Shown here: one piece after another, positions 18,311-43,422 of the stretch | How positions within the stretch are numbered: position 1 is the first letter of the stretch | Layout: every line of letters begins with the position of its first letter | Source of the DNA: Deltaproteobacteria bacterium GWA2_38_16 | GTDB lineage: Bacteria > Bdellovibrionota > JACOXK01 > 2-02-FULL-40-11 | Direction: 5' to 3' | Length of the DNA: 57,007 bases | NCBI GenBank assembly: GCA_001797335.1 | Contig: MGPE01000016.1 | Coordinates: 1-57,007, forward strand | Position numbers and translations under genes: made by a program | The notes under the pieces: model-generated | The model's input: only the letters and a program-made list of their open reading frames with translations | The model's database searches: none | Told to the model about the DNA's origin: nothing

Positions 18311-19891
18311 ATGAGTTCGGAAAATTTAGAAATAAATACGTTTGGCCTAAATACTGGTTCAAATGAAAATAAAATGGATGTGGGGCATGTTGTATTGGTT
18401 CACCCTTTAGAATATACAAAAAATACATTTACTGAAGAAGCTAAGCAAAGCATTCCTATTTCAATCTGGTATTTGGGTTCTTATTTGACTCATTACGGGG
18501 CAAAAGTAACGCTTATTAATTTTGAATCTGACAAAAATGCCATAAACCATTTAAGAGAGATTGCGCCAACAGCAGACCTCATTGGGCTTACAATGATGAC
18601 TTCTCAGATAACGCATAGTCTCACAGTGGCTAAAATCATTAAAGAGGAGATAGGGGATATACCCATTGTGGCTGGAGGAGTACATCCAACGTTATACCCT
18701 AAAGAAACTATTGAAACGCCCTATGTTGATTTTGGAATTTATGGAGAAGGGGAAATAGCGTTATTTGAACTCCTTCATGCTATCAAAGAGAAAAAACCAG
18801 AATACTATTCAACAATAAGTCGTTTGTCTTATAAGAAAAACGGCGAAATATTTTATAATAGCGATCGTACCCCAGTGGATCATTCAAATTATCCTGATTT
18901 GAATTATTCTATACTGGACCAAAAGGTTTTAAAGGCTCAGGAATCTTTACCTTTAATCACCAGCCGAGGATGTCCCTATAATTGTCAGTTTTGTTGTAAT
19001 GTCGTCATTGCAGAAAAACAGACGTTTTCGTCTTGGACTACGGAAAAAATAATGTATGAAATGAGGCGGGGGATTGAACTGGGTGTAACTGATTTTTTTA
19101 TTTGGGATGATAATTTCTTTCAAAAGAAATCCAAAACTGATGAATTTCTTAAAGGAATTAAGAAATTACCAAAGAAAATTACCTGGTTTGGCAATTGCAG
19201 GGCTGAATATTTTCATCAGAATTATTTAAGCAGAGAGTTTCTGAAGGATTTGCGTTCTTATGGACTGACGCGTGTAAGCATTGGCGCAGAATCAGGTTCT
19301 GAAAAGATGTTAACATACTTGCAGAAAGGGAATAAACCTGAACATTTTATGAGATCTGCTGAATGGTGTGCTGAGGCTGATATAGCACCCAGTTATTCAT
19401 TTATGATTGGCATGCCTAAAGAAGAGGATCCCGATATTCACGAAACTATTAAAATTATTTATAAGCTCTGTGAAATATTACCTTTGCCAAAAATTTTAGG
19501 CCCCATGCTATATTTACCCCTGCCGGGAAGTGGCATGTTTAATGATTGTGTAAATGCTGGTTGGCAGCCTCCAAAAACCATTCAGGATTGGGCAGACATG
19601 AATTCTGGCTATGGTTTTCATGCCTATAATAGACCGTGGATTAAAAATCCTAAAATGGTTAGAATTATCTGGTTTTATTCTCTGTTGATCTGTGCTCCAT
19701 TTGGAAAAATTGTAAAACTGATAAGGACATATTCACGATTAACTAAACATCCGAAACATAAGGAATGGTTGCTTGTTTTCTTAGCATTGGGTGGAGCGAT
19801 ATTAGGAAAATTAAGGTATAAGTTAAATTTTTATGCCTTTCCTGTTGAAACAAAGATATTTGCCAGCCTCAGAAGTATAAATTCAATGTAA
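18311..19891 (+). CDS. B12-binding radical SAM protein
   Basis: The 526-residue protein has a cobalamin-binding-like domain (about 25-160, including AGGVHPTLYP and GIYGEGEIALFEL), then the radical SAM cluster site SRGCPYNCQFCC (C221, C225, C228) and SIGAESGSEKM in the core, plus a roughly 120-residue C-terminal extension. Such BchE/P-methylase-type enzymes modify lipids, sugars or tetrapyrroles. The product is unknown. The 20 N-terminal residues before HVVLVHPLEY look non-conserved, so Met22 is a possible start. It closely resembles the gene at 38445 in layout, including the C-terminal ending (FYAFPVETKIF against FYFPIDYKLF). A GtrB-like transferase follows 26 bp later. Confidence 0.93.
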   Translation: MSSENLEINTFGLNTGSNENKMDVGHVVLVHPLEYTKNTFTEEAKQSIPISIWYLGSYLTHYGAKVTLINFESDKNAINHLREIAPTADLIGLTMMTSQITHSLTVAKIIKEEIGDIPIVAGGVHPTLYPKETIETPYVDFGIYGEGEIALFELLHAIKEKKPEYYSTISRLSYKKNGEIFYNSDRTPVDHSNYPDLNYSILDQKVLKAQESLPLITSRGCPYNCQFCCNVVIAEKQTFSSWTTEKIMYEMRRGIELGVTDFFIWDDNFFQKKSKTDEFLKGIKKLPKKITWFGNCRAEYFHQNYLSREFLKDLRSYGLTRVSIGAESGSEKMLTYLQKGNKPEHFMRSAEWCAEADIAPSYSFMIGMPKEEDPDIHETIKIIYKLCEILPLPKILGPMLYLPLPGSGMFNDCVNAGWQPPKTIQDWADMNSGYGFHAYNRPWIKNPKMVRIIWFYSLLICAPFGKIVKLIRTYSRLTKHPKHKEWLLVFLALGGAILGKLRYKLNFYAFPVETKIFASLRSINSM

Positions 19892-19917
19892 AATTTTAAA
19901 TAACAAATTACTTAATT

Positions 19918-20880
19918 ATGCTAGATATATCTATTGTAACGCCCGTATTTAACGAACAAGAAAACCTAAAAATACTCTATGAAAGACTGGTAAAGGTACT
20001 CAATCAACAAAAACTCTCCTATGAAATTATTTTTGTAGATGATGGGAGTAAGGACGATACCCTTTCTATTCTTAAGCAATTACACAAGAAAGATCCCTGT
20101 GTAAAAGTAATCAGTTTTAGTAGAAATTTTGGACATCAAATAGCTGTATCCGCCGGCTTGGATTATTCTACTGGAAAATGTGTCATCACCATGGATTCTG
20201 ATCTTCAAGATGCTCCTGAAGATATCCCTAAATTTTTAGCTCAGTGGCAAAAGGGATATGATTGTGTTTATGCCGTAAGAGTACGAAGACAAGAATCTTG
20301 GGTAAGATCATTTTTCTTTAAATCATTTTATCGCATCTTTAATCAACTTTCTGAGGTAACGCTTCCCTTAGATGCAGGAGATTTTTGTCTTATGGATCGA
20401 AAAGTAGTTAACGCCCTTAAAGCTATGCCTGAAAGGAACCGATTTTTAAGAGCTTTACGATGTTGGGCTGGTTTTAACCATATTGGGATTCCTCAAGAAA
20501 GACCGATGAGACAAGGTGGTTCTATCAAAAATGGAATGAAGCGACTTTTTCATATCGCTTCTAATGGTATTTTTGCCTTTTCGTATCTACCTCTTCGGTT
20601 AGCATCAATCACAGGCGCCCTGATCTCCTTCGGTGGATTTCTATTAATTTTAAAAATTTTATACGAAAAATTCTTTACCTCTAAGCCCATCCTGGGTTGG
20701 ACTTCTCTCATGATTACCGTTATATTTTTTTCAGGCCTTATTATTTTATTTTTAGGTTTAATCGGAGAATATATCTGCCGAATTTATGATGAAACAAAAG
20801 GAAGACCGCTCTATTTTATGAAGGAATCCAGAGGCTTACCAGATTCAGATAAAAATTTTCCTCATGAAAACAATACTTGA
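19918..20880 (+). CDS. GtrB/ArnC-like polyprenyl-phosphate GT2 glycosyltransferase
   Basis: This 320-residue enzyme has the full GtrB/ArnC layout. The DPM1-type domain shows SIVTPVFNEQENLKILYERL, EIIFVDDGSKDDT, SRNFGHQIAVSAGLD, ITMDSDLQDAPEDIP, and the family MPERNRFLRAL and RPMRQGGSIK. Two C-terminal membrane helices follow (ASITGALISFGGFLLIL and SLMITVIFFSGLIILFLGLIGEY). Such proteins load a sugar onto undecaprenyl phosphate at the cytoplasmic face for use by GT-C enzymes outside. The next gene, overlapping by 17 bp, is a GT-C-like membrane protein, which fits a donor-maker/user pair. Confidence 0.95.
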   Translation: MLDISIVTPVFNEQENLKILYERLVKVLNQQKLSYEIIFVDDGSKDDTLSILKQLHKKDPCVKVISFSRNFGHQIAVSAGLDYSTGKCVITMDSDLQDAPEDIPKFLAQWQKGYDCVYAVRVRRQESWVRSFFFKSFYRIFNQLSEVTLPLDAGDFCLMDRKVVNALKAMPERNRFLRALRCWAGFNHIGIPQERPMRQGGSIKNGMKRLFHIASNGIFAFSYLPLRLASITGALISFGGFLLILKILYEKFFTSKPILGWTSLMITVIFFSGLIILFLGLIGEYICRIYDETKGRPLYFMKESRGLPDSDKNFPHENNT

Positions 20881-22456
20881 AATTATCCAAAAACCTTATT
20901 TTATTTTATTCCTTATTTTAAGTTTAGGATTTTCCTTAAGAGCTTATAAACTCAAAGAAATTGGTCTTGTTGCCCCTGATGAATTTATTGTAATTTCAAC
21001 TTTAAAAGAAGCATATGAAAGTTCGATTCACTATGGAGCCCTATCTCCAGAATTTTTTAAAACCCTTATTCATCCTCCTCATGGAGCCTATGCTGCTTAT
21101 GGAAAACTAAGTCGACTTCTTCTGTATTATCCTTTTTTTCATTTTTTTAAAAATGACCTCTCTAATTATCTTTGGATAAGTGTTTTTTGGGGACTTTTAA
21201 CTATTTTTCTCACATTTATCATTGGAAAAAAATATTTTAGTCAAAGCGTAGGATTAATGGCTGCTTTTTTAGTATCTCTATCACCCTGGAATATCCAGTA
21301 TGCCCGATCTTTTTTTGGGCAAATAGATTCTGGTTTTTTTGTTTTATTGTGCGCTTTTTTTTATTTAAAACGCTCTTTATTCTTAAGTAGTTTCATGCTG
21401 GGATTCAGTGCTACTATGCATGGGACTACTCTTTACTTCCTACCGTGTCTCATACTCATTGAAAGTTATTTCCACTACCAAAATCATTTTTTAAAACAAC
21501 TTCTCTCTCTAAGCAAAAAAATATTAATTCTTATTAGCGCTTTTTTTCTGCCATTTTTAATCTATGAGGGCATTGGGTTACTCTATGCTCACGCAAGCTA
21601 TTTATATAGTTTTTTTGTCATATCCAATGTACAAATGACAGAAGAAAAAACTGCAATTTCTCCATTTTATTTATTTCATCAATTTTGGATAAGCAATGGT
21701 ATCATTTTTTCTATCTTAATCGCCATTAGTATTGTTTATGTTTTTTTAAAAGCTAAATTAACACAAGAAAAAAAATATTTTTTTATGGTTTTTTTCCCAT
21801 TAGGGTTTTTTCTTTTATGGCTTATCCAACTTAAAGTTCTACATAGTCTTTTTAGATATTTTTTTCCTATGTTACCTTTTTTAATTATTTGTGCCGCTAT
21901 TGCTATTGAAGATTTTTTAAAACTAAATATACAAAAAATATTTAAGGGAATTATTTTTAGCATAGTAATGGGAGCTATCGTTATAAATAATTTCTCACTT
22001 ACAATATCTTTAATTAAAATTTCTCAAAATTCACTCTCTAAAATAGCCACTTTTTTAACCCAAAAACATATACAAAATATTGTTGTCTCAAATTCATTTT
22101 ATCCCGCTTATTTTAAATATTTATACCCACACATCCATACCATTGAGATCTCCTCAGCGAATGATCTTAATATTCTTTTTAAAAAATCCCCCCAAACTTA
22201 TTATTTCCTTATTTCCGGTTATGATATTAACCGTCTACCTTCTTTCGAAAAATCAAGAGAATTACTTTTTAATCAACCATATGAAGAATTTTTCATGCCG
22301 GTTTTCAAATACTATCCTTCGGCATTTGAAAACGCTTATAATTCAAATTCTACAAATCTATTAGAACAAATAAGAAATGATCCTATAGCTCAAAACCTTT
22401 ATCTTTTTACGTTAGATCCTTTAAAAGCTCCTGAATTGACTCAACATATAAGATAA
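20864..22456 (+). CDS. GT39/ArnT-like multi-spanning glycosyltransferase (GT-C fold)
   Basis: The 530-residue protein has about ten hydrophobic segments and, in the first periplasmic loop, the acidic pair APDEFIVIST expected of the GT-C catalytic site. GKKYFSQSVGLMAAFLVSLSPWNIQYARSFFG is the typical PMT/ArnT second-loop region. The C-terminal 130 residues are soluble and probably periplasmic. Family members transfer sugars from polyprenyl phosphate to lipid A, glycans or proteins on the outer side of the inner membrane. The GtrB-like gene immediately upstream would supply the lipid-linked sugar. The acceptor is not indicated. A radical SAM gene follows after 15 bp. Confidence 0.88.
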   Translation: MKTILEIIQKPYFILFLILSLGFSLRAYKLKEIGLVAPDEFIVISTLKEAYESSIHYGALSPEFFKTLIHPPHGAYAAYGKLSRLLLYYPFFHFFKNDLSNYLWISVFWGLLTIFLTFIIGKKYFSQSVGLMAAFLVSLSPWNIQYARSFFGQIDSGFFVLLCAFFYLKRSLFLSSFMLGFSATMHGTTLYFLPCLILIESYFHYQNHFLKQLLSLSKKILILISAFFLPFLIYEGIGLLYAHASYLYSFFVISNVQMTEEKTAISPFYLFHQFWISNGIIFSILIAISIVYVFLKAKLTQEKKYFFMVFFPLGFFLLWLIQLKVLHSLFRYFFPMLPFLIICAAIAIEDFLKLNIQKIFKGIIFSIVMGAIVINNFSLTISLIKISQNSLSKIATFLTQKHIQNIVVSNSFYPAYFKYLYPHIHTIEISSANDLNILFKKSPQTYYFLISGYDINRLPSFEKSRELLFNQPYEEFFMPVFKYYPSAFENAYNSNSTNLLEQIRNDPIAQNLYLFTLDPLKAPELTQHIR

Positions 22457-22471: not shown

Positions 22472-24013
22472 ATGGCCTCTAATAGAAAAAGTATTTGTCT
22501 TATTATTCCGCCTTCCGCCTTTTTACTCGACGAACGCGTTTTTATGTCTTTGGGTATTTTAAAAATAGCGGCCGTCTTAGAAAAAGAGGGTTATTCTGTT
22601 GAAGTCATTGATCTTTCAGGAGTTGAAAATTATGAAGAAGTAATTGCTCATCATGTTAACACCACAGATAGTCAAATTTTTGGATTAACGGCAACGACTC
22701 CCCAGTTACCTTCTGCCTGTCAAATTGTAAAAGTCATAAAATCCATCAAGCCTCTTTCAAAAACTATTTTAGGGGGACCTCATGCTACGCTGGTAGCCGC
22801 CGCCTTAAAAAGAGAGCAATCCAAACAAATTGTAAATGGAAGGGCTAAAACAGCATTTGAAGCTTTACAACAGCAATTTGATATCCTTATTGCCGGAGAT
22901 GGTGAACATGCTATTTTTTTATCTCTAGAAGACAATGCTCCTAAATTTATAGATGCCGATGATCCTAAAACATCTTTGTTCTTAAAAAATGTAGATTTAA
23001 ATATTCTTCCCTTTCCTGCAAGACATCTCGTAGATGTAAATTCATACAAATATTCTATTGATGGGGTTAGAGCCTTAAGCCTCATTGCTCAGTTGGGGTG
23101 CCCTTTTGAATGTGGTTTTTGTGGCGGAAGATATTCTCCCTTTTTAAGACGGACTCGGATTCGATCTACAGATCATGTCATCCAAGAAATTGAGCATCTT
23201 TATCGGACATATCATATTAAAGGATTTATGCTTTACGATGACGAACTTAATGTTAACCCAAAATTAGTTGAACTCATGAATGCTATTTCTGATCTTCAAA
23301 AAAGAGAAAAAACAGAATTTAGATTAAGAGGCTTTATTAAATCTCAACTTTTTACAGATGAACAAGCTGAATCGATGTATCGAGCAGGCTTTAGATGGAT
23401 CCTGGTTGGATTTGAATCTGGTTCTGAAAAAATTCTAAAAAATATTAATAAGAAAGCTACCCAAAAAGAAAATACCCGATGTATGGAAATAGCCAAAAGA
23501 CATGGCTTAAAAGTAAAAGCCCTCATGTCTTTAGGACATCCTGGAGAATCTCCCCAAACCATTCAAGAAACCTATGAATGGCTGTTAGAAGTTAAGCCCG
23601 ATGATTTTGATATTACCGTTATTACGACTTATCCTGGAACCCCTTATTATGATGATGCCACTCTTTACGACAAAGAAAAAAATACTTGGATTTATGAATT
23701 CAATAACGACAAATTGTATAGTGTCGAAGTAGATTATTCAACCACTGCTAAATATTATAAGGGAGATCCTCAAGGTGGATATCAAGCTTTTGTATTTACA
23801 GACTATCTTACTCCTCAAGCCTTAGTTCAAGGCAGAGATTTTGCAGAAAATATTGTCCGTAAAAAATTAAATATCCCTTATCCACAAGCCTCCAAAGCCA
23901 TCCGCTATGAACATAGCATGGGGCAATTGGGTCATTTATTACCCCCCAATATCTTTAGAAAATCAACTCCTCCCTCTCTGATGAAATCGCATGGCAAAAG
24001 TATTACTTATTAA
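22472..24013 (+). CDS. B12-binding radical SAM protein
   Basis: The 513-residue protein has a cobalamin-binding-like domain (about 8-150; LTATTPQLPSACQIVKVIK, LGGPHATLVA, AGDGEHAIF) and a radical SAM core with LGCPFECGFCGG (C210, C214, C217), followed by LYDDELNVNPKLVELM and VGFESGSEKILKNINK. The core ends near residue 400, and a 100-residue C-terminal region, perhaps substrate-related, follows. Its next neighbour is another protein of the same class, overlapping by 23 bp, so the two probably act in sequence or together. A methyl transfer or carbon-skeleton change on a glycan or lipid intermediate is a guess from context. Confidence 0.93.
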   Translation: MASNRKSICLIIPPSAFLLDERVFMSLGILKIAAVLEKEGYSVEVIDLSGVENYEEVIAHHVNTTDSQIFGLTATTPQLPSACQIVKVIKSIKPLSKTILGGPHATLVAAALKREQSKQIVNGRAKTAFEALQQQFDILIAGDGEHAIFLSLEDNAPKFIDADDPKTSLFLKNVDLNILPFPARHLVDVNSYKYSIDGVRALSLIAQLGCPFECGFCGGRYSPFLRRTRIRSTDHVIQEIEHLYRTYHIKGFMLYDDELNVNPKLVELMNAISDLQKREKTEFRLRGFIKSQLFTDEQAESMYRAGFRWILVGFESGSEKILKNINKKATQKENTRCMEIAKRHGLKVKALMSLGHPGESPQTIQETYEWLLEVKPDDFDITVITTYPGTPYYDDATLYDKEKNTWIYEFNNDKLYSVEVDYSTTAKYYKGDPQGGYQAFVFTDYLTPQALVQGRDFAENIVRKKLNIPYPQASKAIRYEHSMGQLGHLLPPNIFRKSTPPSLMKSHGKSITY

Positions 24014-25535
24014 TCCTTCTTATCAAAACAGCTATGGCAATGGGAAAATGTCTATTTTAAATCCTGTTCACCCCACTTTAAGCCTCATGACCATTGCCGC
24101 TTCCGCCTTAAAACAGGGGCATCATGTAGAGATATTAGACCTCTCTTATAGACAATATCACTATCAAATTATTAAAGACAAAATTATCCAATTTAAACCT
24201 GACTTTGTAGGTGTCACCGCTACAACTCCTTTAATGAATCAAGCTAGAGATATTAGTGTCCTCATCAAAAATATATATCCCTCTATTACAACCATCATTG
24301 GAGGACCTCATGTTTCCGCATTGCCCTATGAAAGTCTTTGTGAATCACTGTTTGATATTGTTGTAGTGGGCGAAGGGGATTACACATTTACCGATATTAT
24401 CAATGGAAATTCCTTAGAAACGATTCCTGGAATTTATTACCGAAAAAAAGATACTATACACAGTACTCCTTTTAGAGATTTTGTTCAAAATTTAGATGAT
24501 CTCCCATTCCCCGCGTTAGAACTTTATGACGCTTTGGCTTATAAAGGTAAAATCAGCCATTTATTTGCTAAACAAACCCCTCTCACCCTTTTAGAATTTT
24601 CTCGTGGGTGCGTATATAAATGTGATTTTTGTGCCAGCAAAAATACAATGGCATTAGGATATCGAAAGAAATCTCCTGAACGGTGTTCTGAAGAAGTTAA
24701 ATACATTGCCAAATTAGGATATAAAGAATTTGCTCTAGCCGATGACATTTTTACCTCCGATAATAAATGGGCAACCGCCGTAGCAGAAGCTATTATTAAA
24801 ACAAATGTAAATATAGTTTGGACTTGCTCTAATGGAATTCGTGTAGAAAGTGCGAATATAAATATGTTTAAAACCATGAAAAAAGCAGGCTGCTATCGTG
24901 TATCCTTTGGCTTTGAATCTGGTAACGATGAGGTGCTTCAAAAATTTGGTAAAGGAGGGAAAGCCTCTATTGAACAAGGATATAAGGCTGTAAAACTTGC
25001 TAGAAAAGCAAAGATAGATACCTGTGGTTTTTTTATGCTTGGGCTTTCTTATGACACAGAATCAACGATGATGGATACCATTCAGTTTGCCAAAAATACT
25101 GAATTAGATCTACTGAAATTTGGAAAAACAATTGCGTTTCCAGGAACCCCTATGTTTCAAGATTATAGACAGAAAAAACTGATTAGATCTTACAATTGGG
25201 ATGATTATTTCATTTATTCTAATGAAACATTATTCACACACCCAAAACTCAGCCATAAAACGATAAAAAAATATGCCCAAATTGCTTATCGCGAAGCCGT
25301 TCTTAAAAATCCTAAATTCATTTTACGACGAATTCTTCGTGGGATTAAGACTAGAGAATTTTTTTTAGATTTTTATTATTTTATTAAATGGTTTTTTGCT
25401 CCACCTTTTAGCACTGAAGGAGACAAAAGCATTTATTATAATAAAACGAAATGGCCCACCTACGATTTTGAAAATAACCAATTAAAGACAATTCCTATCC
25501 GCTCTATTGGGAATAAAGTGGCCATCCGCATGTAA
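23991..25535 (+). CDS. B12-binding radical SAM protein
   Basis: This 514-residue protein starts MAKVLLINPSYQNSYGNGKM, the usual start of the class, then shows IIGGPHVSALPYESL and VVVGEGDYTFTDII in the cobalamin-binding-like domain. The cluster motif FSRGCVYKCDFCAS (C207, C211, C214) and FGFESGNDEVLQKFGKGG follow in the core. It resembles the 22472 and 28261 products more than the 18311/38445 pair. Its last 54 bp are antisense to the 3' end of the convergent AsnB gene at 25482, so one of the two C-termini may have drifted. The substrate is unknown. Confidence 0.93.
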   Translation: MAKVLLINPSYQNSYGNGKMSILNPVHPTLSLMTIAASALKQGHHVEILDLSYRQYHYQIIKDKIIQFKPDFVGVTATTPLMNQARDISVLIKNIYPSITTIIGGPHVSALPYESLCESLFDIVVVGEGDYTFTDIINGNSLETIPGIYYRKKDTIHSTPFRDFVQNLDDLPFPALELYDALAYKGKISHLFAKQTPLTLLEFSRGCVYKCDFCASKNTMALGYRKKSPERCSEEVKYIAKLGYKEFALADDIFTSDNKWATAVAEAIIKTNVNIVWTCSNGIRVESANINMFKTMKKAGCYRVSFGFESGNDEVLQKFGKGGKASIEQGYKAVKLARKAKIDTCGFFMLGLSYDTESTMMDTIQFAKNTELDLLKFGKTIAFPGTPMFQDYRQKKLIRSYNWDDYFIYSNETLFTHPKLSHKTIKKYAQIAYREAVLKNPKFILRRILRGIKTREFFLDFYYFIKWFFAPPFSTEGDKSIYYNKTKWPTYDFENNQLKTIPIRSIGNKVAIRM

Positions 25536-34776: not shown

Positions 34777-36333
34777 TTATGGAAGCACATTTCCATTGTA
34801 ATATTTTTTTCCAAAAACATTATCATAATCAATAATAACTGATCCTTGTTTTGGGATTGTTACATCAACAATATTATCCGAAACGAATAGTGTCTTAAAA
34901 TTTAACATATTATTATCTATATTAATAGCCGCTGATCGCACCAAAAATACAGGTTTTTTTTCACCTAGTGCTACTTGTACTAGTTCCTCAAGACTATTCC
35001 ACGGAAGGCATTGTTCTCCCCAGAATTTATCCAATAAATTTCTACCCTCATAAAAAGCAGACCAGTCGTATGAAATGTTCTTTGCAAAGCTATATTGATT
35101 AATAACAATACGATCAGCGCTTAACATTTCATCTTTGTTTTTTGAAAGATATTGATAAAGAGAATGATTGATACGGCGAGCAACGACTTGATTCCATGCC
35201 ACTCCTTGACAAACAACTAAAAAAAATAAAAAAATACTAGCCATAATTTTCACTTTGTGGGTTTGAATAATTTTAAATCTTAAAAAGAAAAGACAAATTA
35301 AGACAAGCCCTATAGATGATAAAGCTGTGTGTCTACCTAATACTTCTGTCCAAAAACTATTTACCATGAGAAAAACGATGAAAATAATAATAGAAAAATA
35401 AATTAATTTTAAATTTTCTGGAAAATCAGCTGTCTTTTTAAGCCATTTTATAAATCCATAAAACGCAACCATATCTAATGCCGAAATTATGAATAGCCAT
35501 TTTAATTCTATGGTAGGGAATCGATATAATCCGTATAAAATAGGTTGAATCATTTTATATCCCACATAATTACTGGGTATTTCAGTTATAATATTATGCC
35601 ATATAGTCCCTGTTTCTTGAGCACCTCTTGCAGTTTTGACTATTCCGTATGCATAAAACAGGTAATGGCCTAAAAATCGAAAAATAGCATAGCATAGAGC
35701 TGGAATCCAAAATAACAACGTAACAGCCATGCTCATCATCTTTTTCCTCCCATAAAGGAAAGCATAACACGTTAAAGCAATAGGAAGAAAAAAAGGTAAC
35801 TCATACCAAAAAATAGCCATTGTATAAGTAAATAAGGATAAAAATAAAAACCGCTTCTTCTCTATTTTTATGAAATAAATAAAGCTTATAACACTTACTA
35901 AAGCCAATGAATAATTCATAATTGTGGTGGTCACATCAAGACCGGAAAAAAGTTCTAGCTTATTTGGAAGAATTAAATGAAAAAGTGCTCCCAAAAAGGC
36001 TAAGGATACATTTGATAAAAGAGTAAGCATTAAAAAATATACCAAAAGAGAAAAAACACTGCTAATTAAAAACATTAGCATTGTTGACAATAACTGATTT
36101 TGGTTTACCAGCCGTTCCATTAAATCAAGATAAATCATACTCAAAGGACGATCTGGATTGTGTAAAATAACATTATAAATATCTCCTATGGGCATGCTAT
36201 AAATTTCTTTTAAATAATGATATTCATCAATAGTTGGAGAACTACGCTCGAAAGGAAGGAAATGTGCTAACAAATTTAGAAAAATTAAGGCGATATAGGG
36301 GAGTAACGATTTTTTTTTAATAAAATTTATCAC
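34777..36333 (-). CDS. multi-spanning membrane protein, GT39-like
   Basis: This 518-residue protein has around ten hydrophobic segments. After the first helix the loop reads FERSSPTIDEYHYLKEIY, with the acidic DE pair expected of GT-C enzymes, and HNPDRPLSMIYLDLMERL follows. A soluble part of about 130 residues ends the protein. It may transfer a sugar from a polyprenyl carrier on the outer face of the inner membrane. Family assignment rests on topology and the DE loop, so it is less certain than for the 20864 gene. It lies 7 bp after the GT4 gene upstream and 85 bp before the SPASM gene; that gap shows only a GAT-repeat and no clear site. Confidence 0.82.
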   Translation of the reverse strand: MINFIKKKSLLPYIALIFLNLLAHFLPFERSSPTIDEYHYLKEIYSMPIGDIYNVILHNPDRPLSMIYLDLMERLVNQNQLLSTMLMFLISSVFSLLVYFLMLTLLSNVSLAFLGALFHLILPNKLELFSGLDVTTTIMNYSLALVSVISFIYFIKIEKKRFLFLSLFTYTMAIFWYELPFFLPIALTCYAFLYGRKKMMSMAVTLLFWIPALCYAIFRFLGHYLFYAYGIVKTARGAQETGTIWHNIITEIPSNYVGYKMIQPILYGLYRFPTIELKWLFIISALDMVAFYGFIKWLKKTADFPENLKLIYFSIIIFIVFLMVNSFWTEVLGRHTALSSIGLVLICLFFLRFKIIQTHKVKIMASIFLFFLVVCQGVAWNQVVARRINHSLYQYLSKNKDEMLSADRIVINQYSFAKNISYDWSAFYEGRNLLDKFWGEQCLPWNSLEELVQVALGEKKPVFLVRSAAINIDNNMLNFKTLFVSDNIVDVTIPKQGSVIIDYDNVFGKKYYNGNVLP

Positions 36334-36340
36334 GATCTCT

Positions 36341-37489
36341 TTAAGATTGATATACTTTTAAAAAACAATCAATATTTTTTTCAGAAAAAAAGCGCTTTGT
36401 AAAAACATTTGCATTTTGTTTCATGATTTGAATTTTCTGTGGATTATTTTTAAGATCAACGATAGCTCGTGCAAAATTATGGGCCGTTGGTTCTACAAAA
36501 ATACCCGTTCCCTCTTGAAGAGCTTCTCGAATACCTTTTTTATCTGAAGCCAATACAGGAAGACCGCACGCCAACGCTTCCATATTCACCCTACCAAAGC
36601 CTTCCTCATACAAAGAGGGCATAATGAAAAGATCTGCCGACCAATAATATTTCCTAAGTTCTGAGTTTAATACAGGCCCCATAAATACCATATTGGGATA
36701 ATGTGCCATCTGTTGTCTAAGATATTCCTTTCTTGTCCCTTCGCCAATCACTACAAATAAAACATCTTGAGGAACTTGAAGGGCTATTTCCATCAAAAGA
36801 TCCACTCCCTTAATTTCTAAGAGCCTACCCACAAATAAAACTATAAATTTATTATTCCACTGAGAAAAAAGTTTCTCATGGTTATCTTTACGAGGATAAA
36901 AAACAGCTTGATCAATCCAATATCTAAAAACAGAAATTTTTTGAGATGGCACACCATACGTATGAATCAATTGTGGTCGCATCACTTCCGCAGGAATAAA
37001 AATATGATTAGCTCCATTTAAAATCCATTTTAAAACCCAATTATGATAACGAGATAAAATGGATTGATTATAAACCGTTTCAATATCAGCAATAAATTTT
37101 TTTCTAAAAACTAAAGCCAAAAATCGACCAATAAATGTTCCTGTTGCTCCCATTGCATGAATGGTTTCAATTTGAGGGAACCGAATTAAAAAATAAAATG
37201 AATATAAAAATAAATACGGAGTTAAATACAAAAACTGTAATAAAGGTTTGTTTTGTAGTTTATGGAACATGTCTTTTTTTCGTCCAAACCACCAAAGCCT
37301 ACGAACATACAAATTCCGAGAAACTTCTTTTGCCGGCGCCTTCAGAGATGAAGCCAACGGTTGATAGGTTAATACAAAAACATGAATACCTCGCTTAATA
37401 AGCGCTTTACAAAGATCATCCAGGTGAGTCTCGACTCCTCCTACATTAGGGCTAAAAAAAGGAGTTAAAATAAGAATTGCTTTCGACAT
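36341..37489 (-). CDS. GT4 family glycosyltransferase
   Basis: The ATG at 37489 is chosen because AGG lies about 6 bp upstream and the protein then starts MSKAILILTPFFSPNVGGVE, a standard GT4 N-terminus; a TTG at 37504 is the alternative. It has 382 residues with LFVGRLLEIKGVDLLMEIAL and MPSLYEEGFGRVNMEALACGLPVLASDKKGIREAL (EX7E donor site). It is the first gene of the minus-strand operon that runs through asnB copy 2. The divergent methyltransferase gene starts only 29 bp away, so their promoters must overlap. Confidence 0.93.
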   Translation of the reverse strand: MSKAILILTPFFSPNVGGVETHLDDLCKALIKRGIHVFVLTYQPLASSLKAPAKEVSRNLYVRRLWWFGRKKDMFHKLQNKPLLQFLYLTPYLFLYSFYFLIRFPQIETIHAMGATGTFIGRFLALVFRKKFIADIETVYNQSILSRYHNWVLKWILNGANHIFIPAEVMRPQLIHTYGVPSQKISVFRYWIDQAVFYPRKDNHEKLFSQWNNKFIVLFVGRLLEIKGVDLLMEIALQVPQDVLFVVIGEGTRKEYLRQQMAHYPNMVFMGPVLNSELRKYYWSADLFIMPSLYEEGFGRVNMEALACGLPVLASDKKGIREALQEGTGIFVEPTAHNFARAIVDLKNNPQKIQIMKQNANVFTKRFFSEKNIDCFLKVYQS

Positions 37490-37518
37490 AAGGCCTAGAT
37501 ACAAATATTTTCCATAGA

Positions 37519-38448
37519 ATGCAATGCCCTTTATGCAATGAAAAAACCCTATTAACGACGTGTACGAATACTACTTTTGGTCGTGATGGAAAGATTTATC
37601 AATGCCAAAATTGCAAATCTTGTATGGTTTTGCCTCTACCTTCCGATAAAACCCTCACTAACTATTATGAAAAGGAGTGGTCCAATGATCATCCTTCTAT
37701 TCCAACCTACTTAGTTCCTATTTTTCGAATAATTTCTTCTGCTCACATGAATATTAAGAATGATTTTCGGTGGCCATTTTTAAAGCCTTACTTATCTACC
37801 GACATTCGTATTCTAGAAATTGGCGCTGGAGAAGGCTCTCTTTCCCTTTATCTCAAAAAGAAAGGATTTCATATTTCGGTTGTTGAACCTTCTCAAACCT
37901 TTCAGAGACAACTCACTCAAAAAGGGATATCGGTCATCGGTTCCAATCTAGAGGATATCAACGTAAAAGAACCTTTTGATCTTTGTTTATCTTTCCATGT
38001 TTTAGAACATCTCAATAATCCACTGGTTATTCTTAAAAAAATCCGTTCGTTGTTGAAACCCAAAGGACTTTTTTTAGGAGAAGTTCCCAATGTTCCCCTT
38101 ACTCCCGACCATTTATCCGCAGCTGAAAAAGAGACCGTTTTTAATAATGTTCATTTATTTCATTATTCATGTTTAGGATTAGACCACCTCTTTAAAAAAG
38201 CAGCATTTTCTAAAGTCGATTGTATTGAAATTGGGTTTGGTACTTCATGGACAAGAACCCTTTTTCCTAAAGCAAATTTCAATTTCATTCACCCTTCTTT
38301 CAAAGTTTCCAGATGGATAAAATATCCGTCTTTGTTTCATGCTGTTGAAAGTACTTTTCGGAGAGGTTCTACCGTCGTTCAAAAAGGAAGGGGAGAATTG
38401 GGCTATCAAGAACCCAATGATTTTATATTTTTCTGGAGCTCAGCATGA
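37519..38448 (+). CDS. class I SAM-dependent methyltransferase with N-terminal zinc-ribbon-like motif
   Basis: The 309-residue protein opens with two paired cysteines (CPLCNEK and CQNCKSC), a zinc-ribbon-like module common in sugar C- and O-methyltransferases. It then has the SAM-binding motif ILEIGAGEGSLSLYLKKKG, VVEPS after strand 2, and DLCLSFHVLEHLNNPLVILKKIRSLLKPKG. The HVLEHL region fits the Methyltransf-11/23 type. It would act in the cytoplasm, presumably on a sugar nucleotide or lipid-linked sugar. It overlaps the downstream radical SAM gene by 4 bp (ATGA), so the two are probably in the same pathway. Confidence 0.92.
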   Translation: MQCPLCNEKTLLTTCTNTTFGRDGKIYQCQNCKSCMVLPLPSDKTLTNYYEKEWSNDHPSIPTYLVPIFRIISSAHMNIKNDFRWPFLKPYLSTDIRILEIGAGEGSLSLYLKKKGFHISVVEPSQTFQRQLTQKGISVIGSNLEDINVKEPFDLCLSFHVLEHLNNPLVILKKIRSLLKPKGLFLGEVPNVPLTPDHLSAAEKETVFNNVHLFHYSCLGLDHLFKKAAFSKVDCIEIGFGTSWTRTLFPKANFNFIHPSFKVSRWIKYPSLFHAVESTFRRGSTVVQKGRGELGYQEPNDFIFFWSSA

Positions 38449-39962
38449 ATAAAATTCTCCTTTATAATCCCAATCCGAATCCTCATTTAAAGGCAATCGA
38501 TTTACCTCTTTCTCTTTTATGTATTTCTCGTTTTATCGATCAAGAAAATTATGACATTCAAATAGTCAGTGAAAATCTTTATAATAACCCCTTTGACGTC
38601 ATTAGAGAAAATGCTAAAAAAAGTATTGTTTTTGGTGTTTCTTCTATGACCGGTCATCAAATTTATGATGGCCTTAAAGCAACTAAAATTGCAAAAGAAG
38701 CCAACCCCAATATAAAAGTCATCTGGGGAGGATGGCATCCTTCTATATATCCTACGCAAACCCTAGAAAACCCTTATATTGATATAGTCGTCAAAGGCCA
38801 AGGAGAAAGAGCCTTATACGACATTATTAAAAGGATAGAAAAAAAAGAAGAAAATTTTGATGGAATCAACGGGGTTTATTGGAAAGAAAACGGACAAATT
38901 CAACCTAATGCGGATAGACCTCTTGAAGATATAAACACCATGCCTCCTATCCCCTATCATTTAGTAAACACGGAAAAATGCCTCATTGAAACAGAATTTG
39001 GAAACAGGACAATCAATTATGTTTCTAGCTATGGCTGCCCTTATAGATGTGGATTTTGCTGTGAAATAACCGTCAACAAAAGAAGATGGACTGGATTAGA
39101 TGCCAAAAAAGTTGTCGATGATTTAGAGAAACTTGAAAAGGTTTTTAAAGTTAATGGTATTTCAATGTATGATAGTAATTTTTTTATTGATAGACAAAGA
39201 GCTAAAGAAATTTTTCGAGAAATGCTTAATAGAAAACTCTCTCTTCGCCTGGGCAATATGGATGGCCGAACCAAACAACTCGTAGAATCAGATGACGAAC
39301 TTTGGGAGCTGATGAGAGAAACCAAGTGTTATAGCATATTAACAGGAGCAGAGTCAGGAAACCAAGAAGCCCTCGATATTATAAAAAAAGATATTACCGT
39401 TGAAGATAATATTAAATTTGCAAAAAAATGTCATGATTATGGCATAAAAGTAGTTTTTTCAACCCTGGTTGGATTACCCATAGCGAATTCTAATTTTAAA
39501 CACATTGCAAAAAAAACAGATGAACAAATAACATCTACCATTAACATGTTCGATCAACTTCTTTCTTTTGATACCCGCCATCGAGGTCTTATGTTTTTGT
39601 ATTGCCCTTATCCAGGCACCCCCTTATATGAAGAATCGCTTAAACTTGGATTTCAAGAACCTAAAAGTCTAGAACAATGGGGGGCATTTACTCTTTATGC
39701 TAAGCACACACCTTGGATAACTAAAAAACAAGAGTTTTTGGTTCCTATGATTTCAAGTTATTTGTTTATGTTTTTAGATTCTGACACCTTGATTTGGATT
39801 AAAGAAAGAATCAAAAATAGACCCTTAAAGAAAAAATTATTCGTGAGTGCTTTTAAATTATTAAGAATAATTGCAAAATTAAGATGGAAATATAAATTCT
39901 TTTATTTTCCAATTGATTATAAACTTTTTTTATTTGCTAAAAGCAAAAATAAATCCATTTAA
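38445..39962 (+). CDS. B12-binding radical SAM protein
   Basis: The 505-residue protein begins MNKILLYNPNPNPH, has a cobalamin-binding-like domain with VIWGGWHPSIYPTQTLENPYIDIVVKGQGE in overlapping parts, and the cluster motif SSYGCPYRCGFCCE (C198, C202, C205), then LTGAESGNQEALDIIKKD. Its C-terminal ending matches the style of the 18311 product, and both carry the GGxHPxxYP loop and CxxxCxxCC site, so they are probable paralogues. It is translationally coupled to the methyltransferase upstream. A modification of the same substrate by both enzymes is a reasonable inference. The 49-bp gap that follows holds an inverted repeat. Confidence 0.94.
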   Translation: MNKILLYNPNPNPHLKAIDLPLSLLCISRFIDQENYDIQIVSENLYNNPFDVIRENAKKSIVFGVSSMTGHQIYDGLKATKIAKEANPNIKVIWGGWHPSIYPTQTLENPYIDIVVKGQGERALYDIIKRIEKKEENFDGINGVYWKENGQIQPNADRPLEDINTMPPIPYHLVNTEKCLIETEFGNRTINYVSSYGCPYRCGFCCEITVNKRRWTGLDAKKVVDDLEKLEKVFKVNGISMYDSNFFIDRQRAKEIFREMLNRKLSLRLGNMDGRTKQLVESDDELWELMRETKCYSILTGAESGNQEALDIIKKDITVEDNIKFAKKCHDYGIKVVFSTLVGLPIANSNFKHIAKKTDEQITSTINMFDQLLSFDTRHRGLMFLYCPYPGTPLYEESLKLGFQEPKSLEQWGAFTLYAKHTPWITKKQEFLVPMISSYLFMFLDSDTLIWIKERIKNRPLKKKLFVSAFKLLRIIAKLRWKYKFFYFPIDYKLFLFAKSKNKSI

Positions 39963-39970
39963 TAATATTT

Positions 39971-39995: not shown

Positions 39996-40002
39996 TGATA
40001 AT
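39975..40002 (+). promoter_or_regulatory. candidate promoter of the DUF3108 gene
   Basis: TTTACT (39975-39980, 4 of 6), a 16-bp spacer and GATAAT (39997-40002, 5 of 6) end 9 bp before the ATG at 40012. No ribosome site is seen before that ATG. If the second ATG at 40021 is used, a short leader would remain. Confidence 0.45.
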
Positions 40003-40011
40003 GTTTCAAAG

Positions 40012-40743
40012 ATGTTTACTATGATTCAAAAAATAGTGAGTTTTATTGTCTGTCTTTACTCTTTAAGTATAGCTATAGAAGGCATAGCGTCTCCAGCACA
40101 AACAAAGGAAACCTTAACATACAAAATATCTTATTTTTATTTAATTCCCTTTGGGACGGCTTCTTTAACCATTGAAGAACAAACCACAAAACCAGAGGAT
40201 GTTAATGTTAAATATAATTTAACGGTTCTACCCTCTCGTTTTATTCATTTTTTTTCACATTTAAAAGCATCTCTTTCTGCAGAAAAAAAGAAGGATATTG
40301 TTTTATACCAAGAAGATATTGAAAGCCAAATGAGCCGCCCCGAACACAATACCATTATTTATAATCATAAAGAAAATATAATGGAATTTCCTCGTGGACA
40401 ATTTCAGGGACTTAGAAAAAAAGTAAATCCAGATACCCTAGATCCCTTTTCACTTTTCCCAATCTTAAGAAATTCTCCTTTTAAAAAAGGAGATACTCTG
40501 CGTCTTGTTTTAAATTCTCATCAAAGTAATTATATTTTAAAGGGTGTTGTTCAAGATGAAACAGAAAAAACATGGAAAATTCATTTCACGATGCAGCGAG
40601 AAGATAAACAAGATAAAAAACCAAAATTAACACTCGATATCTGGATCAAAAAACCTCTCCATGGAGAAAAAGCAACCCCTACTCTTTTTAAAGCAAAAAC
40701 ATTAATAGGTCCTTTCACCATAAAACTCGTCTCAGCATCATAA
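40012..40743 (+). CDS. DUF3108 domain protein, exported
   Basis: The 243-residue protein has a signal peptide (hydrophobic segment IVSFIVCLYSLSIAIEGIASPA, cleavage probably after IAS) and the DUF3108 pattern: ETLTYKISYFYLIPFGTASLTIEE, then FLKA-type FFSHLKASLSAE and a C-terminal KPLHGEKATPTLFKAKTLIGP. DUF3108 proteins are periplasmic or outer-membrane-facing beta-rich proteins of unsettled role in Gram-negatives, often near envelope genes. The start may be Met4 (40021). Its 3' end overlaps the convergent flippase gene by 29 bp. Confidence 0.88.
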   Translation: MFTMIQKIVSFIVCLYSLSIAIEGIASPAQTKETLTYKISYFYLIPFGTASLTIEEQTTKPEDVNVKYNLTVLPSRFIHFFSHLKASLSAEKKKDIVLYQEDIESQMSRPEHNTIIYNHKENIMEFPRGQFQGLRKKVNPDTLDPFSLFPILRNSPFKKGDTLRLVLNSHQSNYILKGVVQDETEKTWKIHFTMQREDKQDKKPKLTLDIWIKKPLHGEKATPTLFKAKTLIGPFTIKLVSAS

Positions 40744-41962
40744 AAAGGCTAAAGACAGAAACCATCACCAATCCAATTAATATCCATAAAATCTGAAAAG
40801 GTGTATCGTGAAAACAATACATCAAACTTACTTCTAAAATAACCATTCCTATTAATATTTTTAAAAATTTAAATTGAGACAGTGCAATAGAATAATTTAC
40901 CAGAATATACAGCAAAGCCATAAAAAACATGGCGATGGCATAAAGTCTTAAATAAGGAATAGCAGCCAGTGCTTCTTTTTTTCCAAAAAATTCTAAAATA
41001 AATTCCGGAAAAAACATAAACAATGATAATGCCCCTCCCGAAATACAGGCAGAAAAACCCAATGCCTTTAATAACAAAGTCTTAGACGGTTTATTTAAAA
41101 CAGCATTTTGGGCTACTTGAGGAAACATGACCATAATAACCGATAAGGAAAGATAAAATACAGTTTTGCCTAAGATCGCAGCTGTTGCATAAAGCCCTGT
41201 TTCGTGACTTTGGGTTCCGGATCCCCAAAAGTGTTGTACTAAAATAAGATCAATAGACAAAATAATAGAAAGCAAAGAATAAGAAATTAAACTGGGGATA
41301 ATATACCGAAAGTTTTTTTTAAAATGATGTTCTCTGCCAAAAGGCCACACCCACCATTTCTCCGTCGTATAAATAATAATTAAAAGAACCATGAGAGAAG
41401 AAATTAACATCATGCTTATAATATTAGCCATGTTATATTCCGAAAATCGAAGAGATACCCCCCCTAACCACTTTAAAAAACCAACCAAAAAGAGACAAAT
41501 CCCCACTCCTAAAAACTGTTGAAACCCTTGTAGAAATCCAAAACCCAAATATAAAAATAACCCCACAACCACTAAACATCCAATAAGCAGAAAGATAAAA
41601 GGCGAGGATATATGAAAAAAATGAGAAAGATGATGTTGAAAGAAAAAAACAAGTGCTAAAAATACGATAGAAACAAAAAATAGATCTTTTATCCATACTG
41701 AAAAAAAATATTTTAATTCTGCCCATTGGGCTTTTGCTTTATATTCAGAAACATATTTTGAAATAATCATCTGTAAGGTCGTAATAGGAATAGTTAAAAT
41801 AGAATAAAAAGATAAAAGAGAATTTAAAAGCCCGTAATCTGCCTTTGTTAAGGTATGTGACATTAAATACTGATAGAGAAAATTAAAAAAAGAGCCTCCC
41901 GTAGAAAGAAAAAAAATAAGGATACTTTGTCTAAAGAATTTGTCCTGATAAATTTTTTTCAT
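40715..41962 (-). CDS. Wzx-like oligosaccharide flippase
   Basis: This 415-residue protein has about twelve hydrophobic helices and the polysaccharide-transport start FFRQSILIFFLSTGGSFFNFLYQYLMSHTLTKADYGLLNSLLSF in pieces (the TKADYGLLN stretch is the family's AEFGxYs-like signature). It belongs to the MATE/Wzx superfamily, whose members flip undecaprenyl-linked oligosaccharides to the periplasm. It is the only flippase in the window and so the probable exporter for the glycan made by the surrounding genes. It touches the upstream radical SAM gene at one base. Confidence 0.9.
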   Translation of the reverse strand: MKKIYQDKFFRQSILIFFLSTGGSFFNFLYQYLMSHTLTKADYGLLNSLLSFYSILTIPITTLQMIISKYVSEYKAKAQWAELKYFFSVWIKDLFFVSIVFLALVFFFQHHLSHFFHISSPFIFLLIGCLVVVGLFLYLGFGFLQGFQQFLGVGICLFLVGFLKWLGGVSLRFSEYNMANIISMMLISSLMVLLIIIYTTEKWWVWPFGREHHFKKNFRYIIPSLISYSLLSIILSIDLILVQHFWGSGTQSHETGLYATAAILGKTVFYLSLSVIMVMFPQVAQNAVLNKPSKTLLLKALGFSACISGGALSLFMFFPEFILEFFGKKEALAAIPYLRLYAIAMFFMALLYILVNYSIALSQFKFLKILIGMVILEVSLMYCFHDTPFQILWILIGLVMVSVFSLFMMLRRVLW

Positions 41963-43422
41963 TACTGGTTGGGGGTAAAATCGAGCAGATGTCCTACCAC
42001 TTGTTTTGCAGCACGATAATAAAATTTCACATCATCAATCTTACGAATTTTGCTCATTTTTCGAAACATATAGGCAGGAGTAAAACAAGATTTATACAAA
42101 TCTTGAGAGAGTTTTCTCACATCCTCTGATGTTAGTGGCCCCTTTAACACTTGTTTTCTCATGTCATAATCATCCCAATCAGTAGTCAAAAGCCAATCGT
42201 TTTCTTGCGCTTGCCGAAAGAGTTCTGTCCCCGGATAAGGGATGACAATAGTTGCTTGAAGCGTATCAATCCACCCTTTTTGAAATAAATCCTTAGTCAG
42301 ACGAATCGTCTCCAAGGCATCATGTTTTGTTTCCCAAGGATATCCCACCATACACGTCACATGAGGCTCTAATCCCGCTTTTTTAGCCATCCGCATTGTT
42401 TCAATAATATCTTGAACACTGTTTCCTTTATTCAACCTCTCTAGCGTTTTATCATTGGCAGATTCAATGCCATACAGAATAAATCTAAAATTGGCTCGCC
42501 CCATTAAATTATATTGCTCTTGGGTTAATGCTCCCGGTTTCATATTGCATCCCATCACTACTTTTTGATGAAGTCCTCGTTTCATAAGCCCTTCGCAAAA
42601 TTCCTGTAAAAATTTCCCTCCGGGAAAAGTACCGGTATCATCAAAAATTTCTCGAACACCATAGCGATGTACCAGTTCGTCGATTTCATTTAAAAGATGC
42701 TCAGCAGATCCCATTTGAAATTTTGGAAAAATCCCTGTCCAAGAACAAAAGGTGCATCCTCCGTCTTTTCTCCACCAACAATCCCGCCCAATCATGGTAT
42801 AGGTACCGGGCAAATATTTATAATTTCCATTATGAAGAGAGTATTGTTTCCAGTGGGTTAAGTCTCGATCAATTTTTGGGAAATCATGAAAAACTCCTTC
42901 TTGTTGAAATTCACCTGAATGTTGAATCTTATTTCCCTCTCGATAATAAATTCCACCACACATTTTTTCTTTTTTAGAAATATGATTGACCAAAGAGAGA
43001 AGCGATAAATCGAAATTGCCTCCGGTCATCACATAATCAACCGGGGATTTTTCTAAAGATTCTTCTGGAAACGCCGTAACATGATCCCCCATGAGTACAA
43101 CCGTAATATCGGGACGAAAATTTTTCATGTCATAAATAATCGACCAATATTTTTTGATCGTGGGCGTTTTGGATTCAATAGCAATAAGCTGAATATCTGA
43201 TTTTTTATACCATTCTAGCCACTCTCCATAAGACTTTTGCTCTGCAATGGCGTCATCCCACACCACTTCATACCCCTTATTTTTTAAAAGGGTGGCTGCA
43301 TAAGCGGGAATCATGGGATAAATATAGGTAGGGGAATTAAACCATTGAAATTGCCTATTTTGGCTTAAAAGCGGAGTCCCTTTAGAAGATTCTAAGGGTG
43401 GATAACTTATCGCAATTTTCAT
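41962..43422 (-). CDS. B12-binding radical SAM protein with unusual CX7CX2C cluster motif
   Basis: The 486-residue protein starts MKIAISYPPLESSKGTPLLS and has a cobalamin-binding-like domain (about 35-145; VVLMGDHVTAFPEESL in place of GGPH). In the cluster site, the usual CX3CX2C is replaced by C215, C223 and C226 (GRDCWWRKDGGCTFCSW), that is CX7CX2C. The rest of the core is normal (DDTGTFPGGKFLQEFCEG, LYGIESANDKTLERLNKG, VGYPWETKHDALETI). It is coupled to the flippase gene by a one-base overlap. The substrate is unknown. A short hairpin sits immediately before its ATG. Confidence 0.93.
   Translation of the reverse strand: MKIAISYPPLESSKGTPLLSQNRQFQWFNSPTYIYPMIPAYAATLLKNKGYEVVWDDAIAEQKSYGEWLEWYKKSDIQLIAIESKTPTIKKYWSIIYDMKNFRPDITVVLMGDHVTAFPEESLEKSPVDYVMTGGNFDLSLLSLVNHISKKEKMCGGIYYREGNKIQHSGEFQQEGVFHDFPKIDRDLTHWKQYSLHNGNYKYLPGTYTMIGRDCWWRKDGGCTFCSWTGIFPKFQMGSAEHLLNEIDELVHRYGVREIFDDTGTFPGGKFLQEFCEGLMKRGLHQKVVMGCNMKPGALTQEQYNLMGRANFRFILYGIESANDKTLERLNKGNSVQDIIETMRMAKKAGLEPHVTCMVGYPWETKHDALETIRLTKDLFQKGWIDTLQATIVIPYPGTELFRQAQENDWLLTTDWDDYDMRKQVLKGPLTSEDVRKLSQDLYKSCFTPAYMFRKMSKIRKIDDVKFYYRAAKQVVGHLLDFTPNQ

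Follow-up and report, generated by a model that had tools for sequence, protein, structure and literature searches.

The DNA window analysed here, a stretch of 57,007 nucleotides from a groundwater bacterium, holds a variable, low-GC surface-glycan island set between two conserved blocks, one of which is the LPS-core operon that the island adjoins. Class-B (B12-type) radical SAM enzymes are found there together with glycosyltransferases and AsnB amidotransferases, and we see about an even chance (a probability near 0.5) that they carry out radical tailoring of polyprenyl-linked sugars, or of intermediates of the LPS core, which a GT-C transferase or a flippase would then use, the island having been put together from small exchangeable modules. 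Class-B radical SAM enzymes form a very large group for which few substrates are known. A tight link with polyprenyl-linked sugars, if true, would provide a substrate class for many orphan members of this group, and would lead one to expect unusual sugars, C-methylated or deoxygenated, on bacteria that have not been cultured.

A variable island between conserved blocks

The open reading frames reported in a first-pass annotation of the window were found at their positions. Seven class-B radical SAM genes, one SPASM radical SAM gene, two AsnB genes and many glycosyltransferase genes lie between positions 1 and 43,422, so that seven of the eight related class-B proteins of the genome sit in 43.4 kb out of 2.0 Mb, a clustering that none of 200,000 random placements reproduced. 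Uniqueness of this density must nevertheless be rejected: islands rich in radical SAM genes are common in the phylum, L203 (in G094) having five strong and two weak ones within 19 kb, and L173, L177, L187 and L198 four each.

The GC content is 31-35% at 21-42 kb, versus 36-40% in most of the flanks. On one side stands an LPS-core-type operon (3182..16460, plus strand), where Pfam matches identify GT2, GT9, ELM1-like, a GT4-GT9 fusion, a polysaccharide deacetylase, three further GT9 and three GT2 genes; on the other side (46709..55697) a CUB protein, PBP1A, RNase J, SLT-LysM and an S13 carboxypeptidase are encoded on the minus strand, with an abhydrolase among them on the plus strand. The order PBP1A-RNase J-SLT-S13 is common to the window and to the relatives G002 and G003. 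Relatives retain both flanking blocks while the island content differs: in G003 the LPS operon directly adjoins the PBP1A block, and in G002 and G004 other genes occupy the position. The genome codes for LpxC and for methylmalonyl-CoA mutase, which makes both LPS and cobalamin use plausible. The first-pass view of a surface-glycan locus is supported.

The radical SAM proteins

All eight proteins, seven class-B and one SPASM, score above the cut-off of Pfam Radical_SAM (PF04055), and five of the seven class-B proteins (2-1309, 18311, 22472, 23991 and 38445) above that of the B12-binding domain (PF02310, 32.1 bits). The cluster motif is CX3CX2C in six of the seven. Cobalamin binding is predicted from sequence for the five proteins with the domain, and its use is plausible. 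The genes had been described as diverse rather than as a tandem array, and this holds, with mutual identities of only 21-30%.

The gene of rSAM0 (2..1309, minus strand; Radical_SAM 75.7, B12-binding 63.8 bits) is truncated by the end of the 58,117-b contig at base 1 of the window, and is indeed the partial seventh B12-type gene announced there. Four further proteins are complete and of B12 type, as had been proposed: rSAM1 (18311..19891, plus; B12-binding 61.3 bits), rSAM2 (22472..24013, plus; 51.8 bits), rSAM3 (23991..25535, plus; 68.8 bits), whose gene overlaps that of rSAM2 by 23 bp, and rSAM5 (38445..39962, plus; 48.7 bits), which overlaps a methyltransferase gene by 4 bp. Hydropathy reveals two hydrophobic C-terminal segments in rSAM1 (residues 452-470 and 487-505). 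The AlphaFold2 model of rSAM2 (pLDDT 88.8) has TsrM and AprD4 as its nearest folds. Neither rSAM1 nor rSAM5 has a homologue at E<=1e-60 among 241 genomes of the phylum. The same B12-type description falls short for the other two of the six. In rSAM4 (28261..29637, minus; Radical_SAM 61.8 bits) Pfam detects no B12-binding domain; the N-terminal alpha/beta fold is retained in its AlphaFold2 model (pLDDT 83), and GDIA takes the place of the usual GGxH loop, making it an AprD4-like protein of class-B fold with a degenerate B12 loop. In rSAM6 (41962..43422, minus), where the cluster motif is CX7CX2C, the domain is sub-threshold at 27.1 bits. The SPASM-type protein (33531..34691, minus; Radical_SAM 70.2, SPASM 27.7 bits) was correctly recognized, and no NCBIfam family matches it above cut-off.

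Glycosyltransferases, amidotransferases and polytopic partners

Pfam confirms both AsnB proteins: AsnB1, a glutamine amidotransferase (16450..18171, minus; Asn_synthase 300.8, GATase_7 162.6 bits), which lies just outside the interval to which it had been assigned, and AsnB2 (25482..27407, minus; Asn_synthase 338.6 bits), which reaches the TIGR01536 cut-off. A plasmid search with AsnB2 returned solely generic AsnB proteins at less than 60% identity. Two GT2 enzymes were placed by PDB sequence search. One (19918..20880, plus) has full-length homology (282 bits, residues 2-307) with the sll0501/GtrB structures 5ekp and 9nyc and is a GtrB-like, polyprenyl-phosphate glucosyltransferase-type enzyme, putatively a polyprenyl-P-hexose synthase. 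The other (27407..28264, minus) is of ArnC/DPM-synthase type, with 79 bits to ArnC (9bhc) and 67 bits to dolichyl-P-mannose synthase (5mlz). The remaining GT2 (29662..30678, minus), two GT4 (32396..33505 and 36341..37504, both minus) and the SAM methyltransferase (37519..38448, plus; Methyltransf_23 69.7 bits) have the Pfam matches expected from their first description, the last having a pattern of cysteines that indicates an N-terminal Cys4 ribbon.

The GT-C transferases and the flippase that had also been named have no direct Pfam match above cut-off. The product of 20864..22456 (plus) is probably a PMT_2-like GT-C transferase, an assignment made via a homologue only: its own PMT_2 score is 9.1 bits for a cut-off of 26.1, and the G002 protein to which it is 27% identical over 487 aa (L016:7598-9160) scores 33.4 bits. 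Two other polytopic proteins are GT-C-like by inspection only, one (30675..32435, minus) from its hydrophobic sequence, with no Pfam family above cut-off, the other (34777..36333, minus) from an acidic 'TIDE' motif in its first loop, with no Pfam match. The protein encoded at 40715..41962 (minus), again with no Pfam match, is probably a Wzx-type flippase, and its 47% homologue in G002 adjoins rSAM6. HMMs built from the polytopic proteins recovered almost no homologues, and polytopic proteins were therefore scored by hydropathy.

Modules that recur in relatives

The complete gene set of the island is kept in no relative, and one conserved pathway has to be rejected. The single pathway of the first-pass annotation is not supported: rSAM1 and rSAM5 are without homologues at the above threshold, and the other radical SAM genes belong to separate small modules. 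It is these sub-modules that recur. The rSAM2 family, which has no name yet, spans more than 10 phyla at 55-74% identity, Patescibacteria and Nitrospira included, with GT2-rSAM2-polytopic triads in both of these groups and neighbours that differ widely from phylum to phylum. In two relatives from the same family its orthologues are part of the GT9 operon for the LPS core, in the order GT9b/c/d-rSAM2-GT2c (G003) and GT9d-rSAM2-GT2c-GT2d-GT2e (G002), and in G004 the order is GT2c-rSAM2. Orthologues of rSAM3 (53-74% identity; G007, G055, G084) adjoin AsnB in G084 (AsnB-rSAM3-GT2) and G007 (rSAM3-AsnB), so that the module keeps AsnB and a GT2 of polyprenyl-phosphate-sugar type, the GT2 next to rSAM3 in G084 being a 42% homologue of the ArnC/DPM-type enzyme. 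A 78% orthologue of rSAM6 lies in G002 between GT2 and flippase, in a module that reads PMT_2 GT-C / GT2 / rSAM6 / flippase. Tight GT2-AsnB-rSAM operons built with unrelated radical SAM proteins are present in G047 (L149) and G120 (L218).

Neighbourhoods were then counted, with simple gene calls, in 111 other loci of the phylum chosen for holding such radical SAM genes, and compared with gene shuffles within each locus, whereby location in an island is already controlled. A polyprenyl-P-sugar-type GT2 (GT2P) lies at most two genes from the radical SAM gene in 34 cases versus 22.9 expected (1 of 2000 shuffles), GT2P with a polytopic protein in 15 versus 6.9 (3 of 2000) and GT2P with AsnB in 3 versus 0.6 (8 of 2000); the GT2P and polytopic enrichments are 1.5-2 fold, and direct adjacency of radical SAM gene and GT2P is not significant in this set (18 versus 13.3; 84 of 1000). 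Most polytopic partners are without a Pfam family, and 5 of the 15 triads contain a Pfam-confirmed GT-C enzyme (PMT_2 or Glyco_transf_22). Epimerase, DegT, methyltransferase and GT4 genes showed no enrichment near radical SAM genes in these loci, and the nucleotide-sugar enzymes among them (epimerase, DegT) were rejected as partners. When loci were sampled by AsnB instead, a radical SAM gene lay within two genes in 4 of 31, and GT2P in 13 of 31; AsnB is therefore at most an optional part, and was rejected as an obligatory partner. The association first drawn with transferases, AsnB and flippase is seen in relatives for GT2P, and in some cases for AsnB and the flippase.

How the modules may work

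The data show which genes are present, their homologies, the build of a variable island, the modules that recur and the excess near GT2P; from these we infer the substrate, reaction, order and product of the radical SAM modules. In the core module a class-B radical SAM protein would be paired with a GtrB/ArnC/DPM-type GT2 and with either a flippase or a polytopic transferase of GT-C type, an AsnB amidotransferase being present in some cases. The GT2 would load a sugar onto polyprenyl phosphate at the inner membrane face, and the radical SAM enzyme would abstract hydrogen from an unactivated carbon of the lipid-linked sugar, or of a growing LPS-core or O-chain intermediate. C-methylation would be the outcome with the B12-competent enzymes, and deoxygenation with the AprD4-like protein at 28261, while a uronic acid may be the target of amidation by AsnB. 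Flipping of the modified unit would follow, and the GT-C enzyme would attach it. In favour of this scheme also count the nearest folds of the radical SAM models, TsrM and AprD4, the second of which works on an aminosugar. The substrate may be the sugar, and peptides, the carrier lipid or the acyl chains of lipid A are alternatives to it.

We know of no radical SAM enzyme family named for lipid-linked surface sugars. It is tempting, if rather speculative, to extend the scheme to a general system, as yet without a name, for the tailoring of polyprenyl-phosphate-linked sugars by class-B radical SAM enzymes. It would consist of GT2, radical SAM and GT-C proteins and, optionally, AsnB, and would have in the 22472 family a widespread, horizontally moving member. 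That family is well conserved and present in the culturable Nitrospira moscoviensis and Sulfidibacter corallicola, where the idea, if true, would be testable.

Alternative readings

A serious competitor, somewhat less likely than the scheme above, sees here an ordinary surface-polysaccharide island, in which the radical SAM genes are located simply because the enzymes of variable surface glycans all are, and in which the radical SAM proteins act on differing substrates (nucleotide sugar, glycan or acyl chain) with no common mechanism that joins them to GT2 and GT-C enzymes. The low GC and mosaic gene content, the loss of the set as a whole in every relative, the changing neighbours of rSAM2, the AsnB genes mostly devoid of radical SAM neighbours, and the other gene sets that accompany radical SAM genes in L203, L187, L198, L173 and L177 all agree with it. 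Against it stand the shuffles within loci, which give an excess of GT2P, and of GT2P with a polytopic protein, and none for epimerase, DegT, methyltransferase or GT4 genes, and the rSAM3-AsnB and rSAM6-flippase pairs that are retained across genera or families.

That the enzymes modify lipids and not sugars, be it the polyprenyl carrier, membrane-spanning lipids or the acyl chains of lipid A, appears unlikely. B12-type radical SAM enzymes do act on lipids in the pathways to hopanoids, ladderanes and archaeal tetraethers. Most of the proteins have HpnJ as their first or second NCBIfam family by score, though far below cut-off, and hydrophobic C-terminal segments occur in rSAM1 and in 41 of 222 related proteins. 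Relatives known not to methylate have hopanoids and lipids as substrates (PMC13142503), which also counts in favour of lipids. Against this, the cut-offs of TIGR04072 (ladderane-type lipid) and of HpnJ/HpnR are far from being reached, and the neighbourhood is one of glycosyltransferases, Pfam scans of the window finding no fatty-acid or hopanoid genes. A glycosylated secondary metabolite cluster, comparable to aminoglycoside loci with AprD4/GenK-type enzymes, is very improbable. Diverse radical SAM proteins do share one cluster, and AprD4, a radical SAM diol dehydratase acting on an aminosugar, is among the top folds for rSAM2 and the first for rSAM4 (6fd2 by Foldseek, TM 0.75, E 7.7e-25, 19% identity), which resembles it also in its degenerate B12 loop. 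Yet rSAM4 has 84.1 bits for an AprD4 equivalog cut-off of 500 (NF033070), its neighbours include no dehydrogenase that would be an AprD3-like reductase (Pfam scans), the same scans of the window found no NRPS, PKS, cyclitol, RiPP precursor or self-resistance gene, and the surroundings are membrane glycan machinery with an LPS-core flank.

Comparison with known systems

No known system matches this gene content. The first-pass annotation had known of none, and neither the NCBIfam scores nor a full-text literature search brought one up, that search being a weak one with subscription literature outside its reach. Known radical SAM pathways (HpnJ, BchE, BzaD and others) were rejected, as all the proteins fall below the NCBIfam cut-offs, so that assignment to the hopanoid, bacteriochlorophyll or cobalamin pathways finds no support: the best scores are 173.4 bits (23991) for HpnJ (TIGR03471, equivalog cut-off 577.6), 173.2 (2-1309) for BchE (TIGR02026, equivalog cut-off 481.35) and 129.2 (22472) for the PhpK-type P-methyltransferase (TIGR04479, subfamily cut-off 600), and none reaches the cut-off of BzaD, a B12-ligand enzyme. 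HpnJ, BchE and PhpK are characterised class-B enzymes that share the B12-binding and radical SAM architecture with the window proteins, but not their gene neighbourhood. TIGR04295 (B12_rSAM_oligo), likewise of B12 type, presumably owes its name to oligosaccharide loci; it is a hypothetical equivalog with a cut-off of 400, and the best score is 87.8. AsnB2 has the complete make-up of an AsnB-type protein that hydrolyses glutamine, as have the XrtA/PEP-CTERM amidotransferase (TIGR03108; 528.1 bits, below the cut-off of 816.9) and the O-antigen AsnB types. LPS-core and O-antigen loci with GtrB-Gtr or ArnC-ArnT periplasmic glycosylation have in common with the window the GtrB-like and ArnC/DPM-type GT2, GT-C-like partners, a flippase, a GT9 heptosyltransferase-family operon and a genomic LpxC, whereas in the window seven class-B radical SAM proteins, a SPASM radical SAM protein and AsnB are interleaved with these, a gene set that the full-text search did not bring up elsewhere.

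The window and its radical SAM proteins

The locus is, in kind, an ordinary variable surface-glycan island. Its left flank is an operon of LPS-core type (GT2-GT9-ELM1-GT4/GT9-deacetylase-GT9x3-GT2x3), in a genome that encodes LpxC, and its right flank carries the PBP1A, RNase J, SLT and S13 genes. We can understand the stretch between them as a variable island because the core-type operon and the PBP1A block directly adjoin in the same-family relative G003, because the intervening content differs between the relatives G002 and G004 and the window, and because GC is reduced there. The stretch 43454-47521, which encodes an uncharacterised protein of 511 aa along with a Kelch and a CUB-like protein, has its counterpart beside rSAM2 in G004 (L022:2454-7946).

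Within bases 1-57,007 of contig C16 (58,117 bases, in a 2.0 Mb genome of 19 contigs), Pfam confirmed eight radical SAM proteins (rSAMs): seven of class B, namely the partial rSAM0 (2-1309) and, by gene start, rSAM1 (18311), rSAM2 (22472), rSAM3 (23991), rSAM4 (28261), rSAM5 (38445) and rSAM6 (41962), and one of SPASM type (33531). It likewise confirmed two AsnB proteins, and GT2, GT4 and GT9 enzymes. Seven of the genome's eight class-B proteins lie inside 43 kb, a clustering reached in none of 200,000 random placements, and those of the window share only 21-30% pairwise identity. The eighth (L033, G000:C2:328267-329640) likewise neighbours GT2, GT4 and GT9 genes. Divergent from the truncated rSAM0 is an EtfB/EtfA pair (1436-3177), which may be an electron source.

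Several labels of the first-pass annotation had to be revised. It had placed rSAM4 in the B12-binding type, yet this protein lacks a Pfam B12-binding match and has GDIA where the others have a GGxH loop; its AlphaFold2 model (pLDDT 83) retains the N-terminal alpha/beta domain, and the nearest solved fold (TM 0.75) is that of AprD4, an aminosugar diol dehydratase that is not known to use cobalamin. For rSAM6, also called B12-type, Pfam upheld the radical SAM domain and gave the B12 domain only below threshold; its cluster motif, CX7CX2C, is shared solely with the G002 orthologue among 241 rSAMs surveyed. In the 36% Nitrospinaceae relative (L082:475-1989), one gene away from an rSAM2 orthologue, the motif is CX4CX2C. 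No direct Pfam match backs the names GT-C and flippase: 20864 is linked to PMT_2 through a homologue in G002, and the remaining two polytopic proteins are called GT-C-like from hydropathy and inspection.

Association with predicted makers of lipid-linked sugars

Eighty further phylum loci around B12-type rSAMs were pooled with those already collected and annotated by profile HMMs for which the window supplied the seeds; gene labels were then shuffled inside each of the 111 loci outside the window, a sample selected for rSAM (at most six scored candidates per genome, simple gene calling). A polyprenyl-P-type GT2 lay within two genes of an rSAM in 34 cases against 22.9 expected (1 of 2000 shuffles), GT2 with a polytopic protein in 15 against 6.9 (3 of 2000) and GT2 with AsnB in 3 against 0.6 (8 of 2000), while the same shuffles of these loci gave no enrichment of epimerase, DegT or MT genes near rSAM. 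Pfam confirmed the GT-C in 5 of the 15 triads of rSAM, GT2 and polytopic protein. When loci were sampled through AsnB, this GT2 was within two genes in 13 of 31 and rSAM in 4, so that AsnB is an optional partner whose basic link is with this GT2. SPASM-type rSAMs near B12-type rSAMs and this GT2 did not significantly exceed shuffles in the phylum loci; such neighbours recur in L190, L216, L203, L187, L180, L161, L143 and L183.

It is mainly this association of rSAMs with predicted makers of lipid-linked sugars, not with nucleotide-sugar enzymes, that makes radical modification of polyprenyl-linked sugars, or of intermediates of the LPS core, the best-supported reading, in which we infer substrate, reaction and product alike. 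The rSAM would act before GT-C transfer or flipping. The folds closest to the predicted rSAM structures, those of TsrM (a methyltransferase) and AprD4 (a sugar dehydratase), favour C-methylation and deoxygenation as the likeliest reactions. None of the window's rSAMs reached a curated NCBIfam cut-off, and no description of the gene set was found in the literature searched. What is new is the recurrent pairing, together with an unnamed rSAM2 family that crosses phyla.

Recurring modules and the rSAM2 family

Islands rich in rSAMs are common across the phylum. The rSAM3 module recurs as AsnB-rSAM3-GT2 in G084 and rSAM3-AsnB in G007, that of rSAM6 as GT-C/GT2/rSAM6/flippase in G002, and tight GT2-AsnB-rSAM operons with unrelated rSAMs are found in G047 and G120. 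L203 (G094:C9, 19 kb), denser in rSAMs than the window, has five strong and two weak B12-type genes, a SPASM gene and a GT2. In L031 (G008:C102:1889-3169), a B12-type rSAM match contains a single in-frame TAG.

Orthologues of rSAM2 (67-74% identity) separate GT9d from GT2c in the core operon of G002 and G003 and adjoin GT2c in G004; the window has GT9d directly adjoining GT2c, and rSAM2 8 kb downstream. Among 241 genomes of the phylum only these four family members carry it. Among named genomes, scanning turned up 152 relatives; the 80 best of them (55-74% identity) span Elusimicrobiota, Nitrospirota, Omnitrophota, Acidobacteriota, Nitrospinota, Planctomycetota, several Patescibacteria and others. 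In the tree the family is compact and distant from the window's other rSAMs, and its phyla are intermixed, which suggests horizontal spread. Two relatives (L039, L040) sit on contigs labelled Akkermansia muciniphila MAGs, through contamination or transfer. In L074, L087, L091, L096, L097, L099 and L100, mainly from Nitrospira, rSAM2 recurs away from any obvious polysaccharide locus, in the company of metG, a small gene, a GT2 and a large, roughly 660-aa polytopic protein, though the full set is not present in each of the seven.
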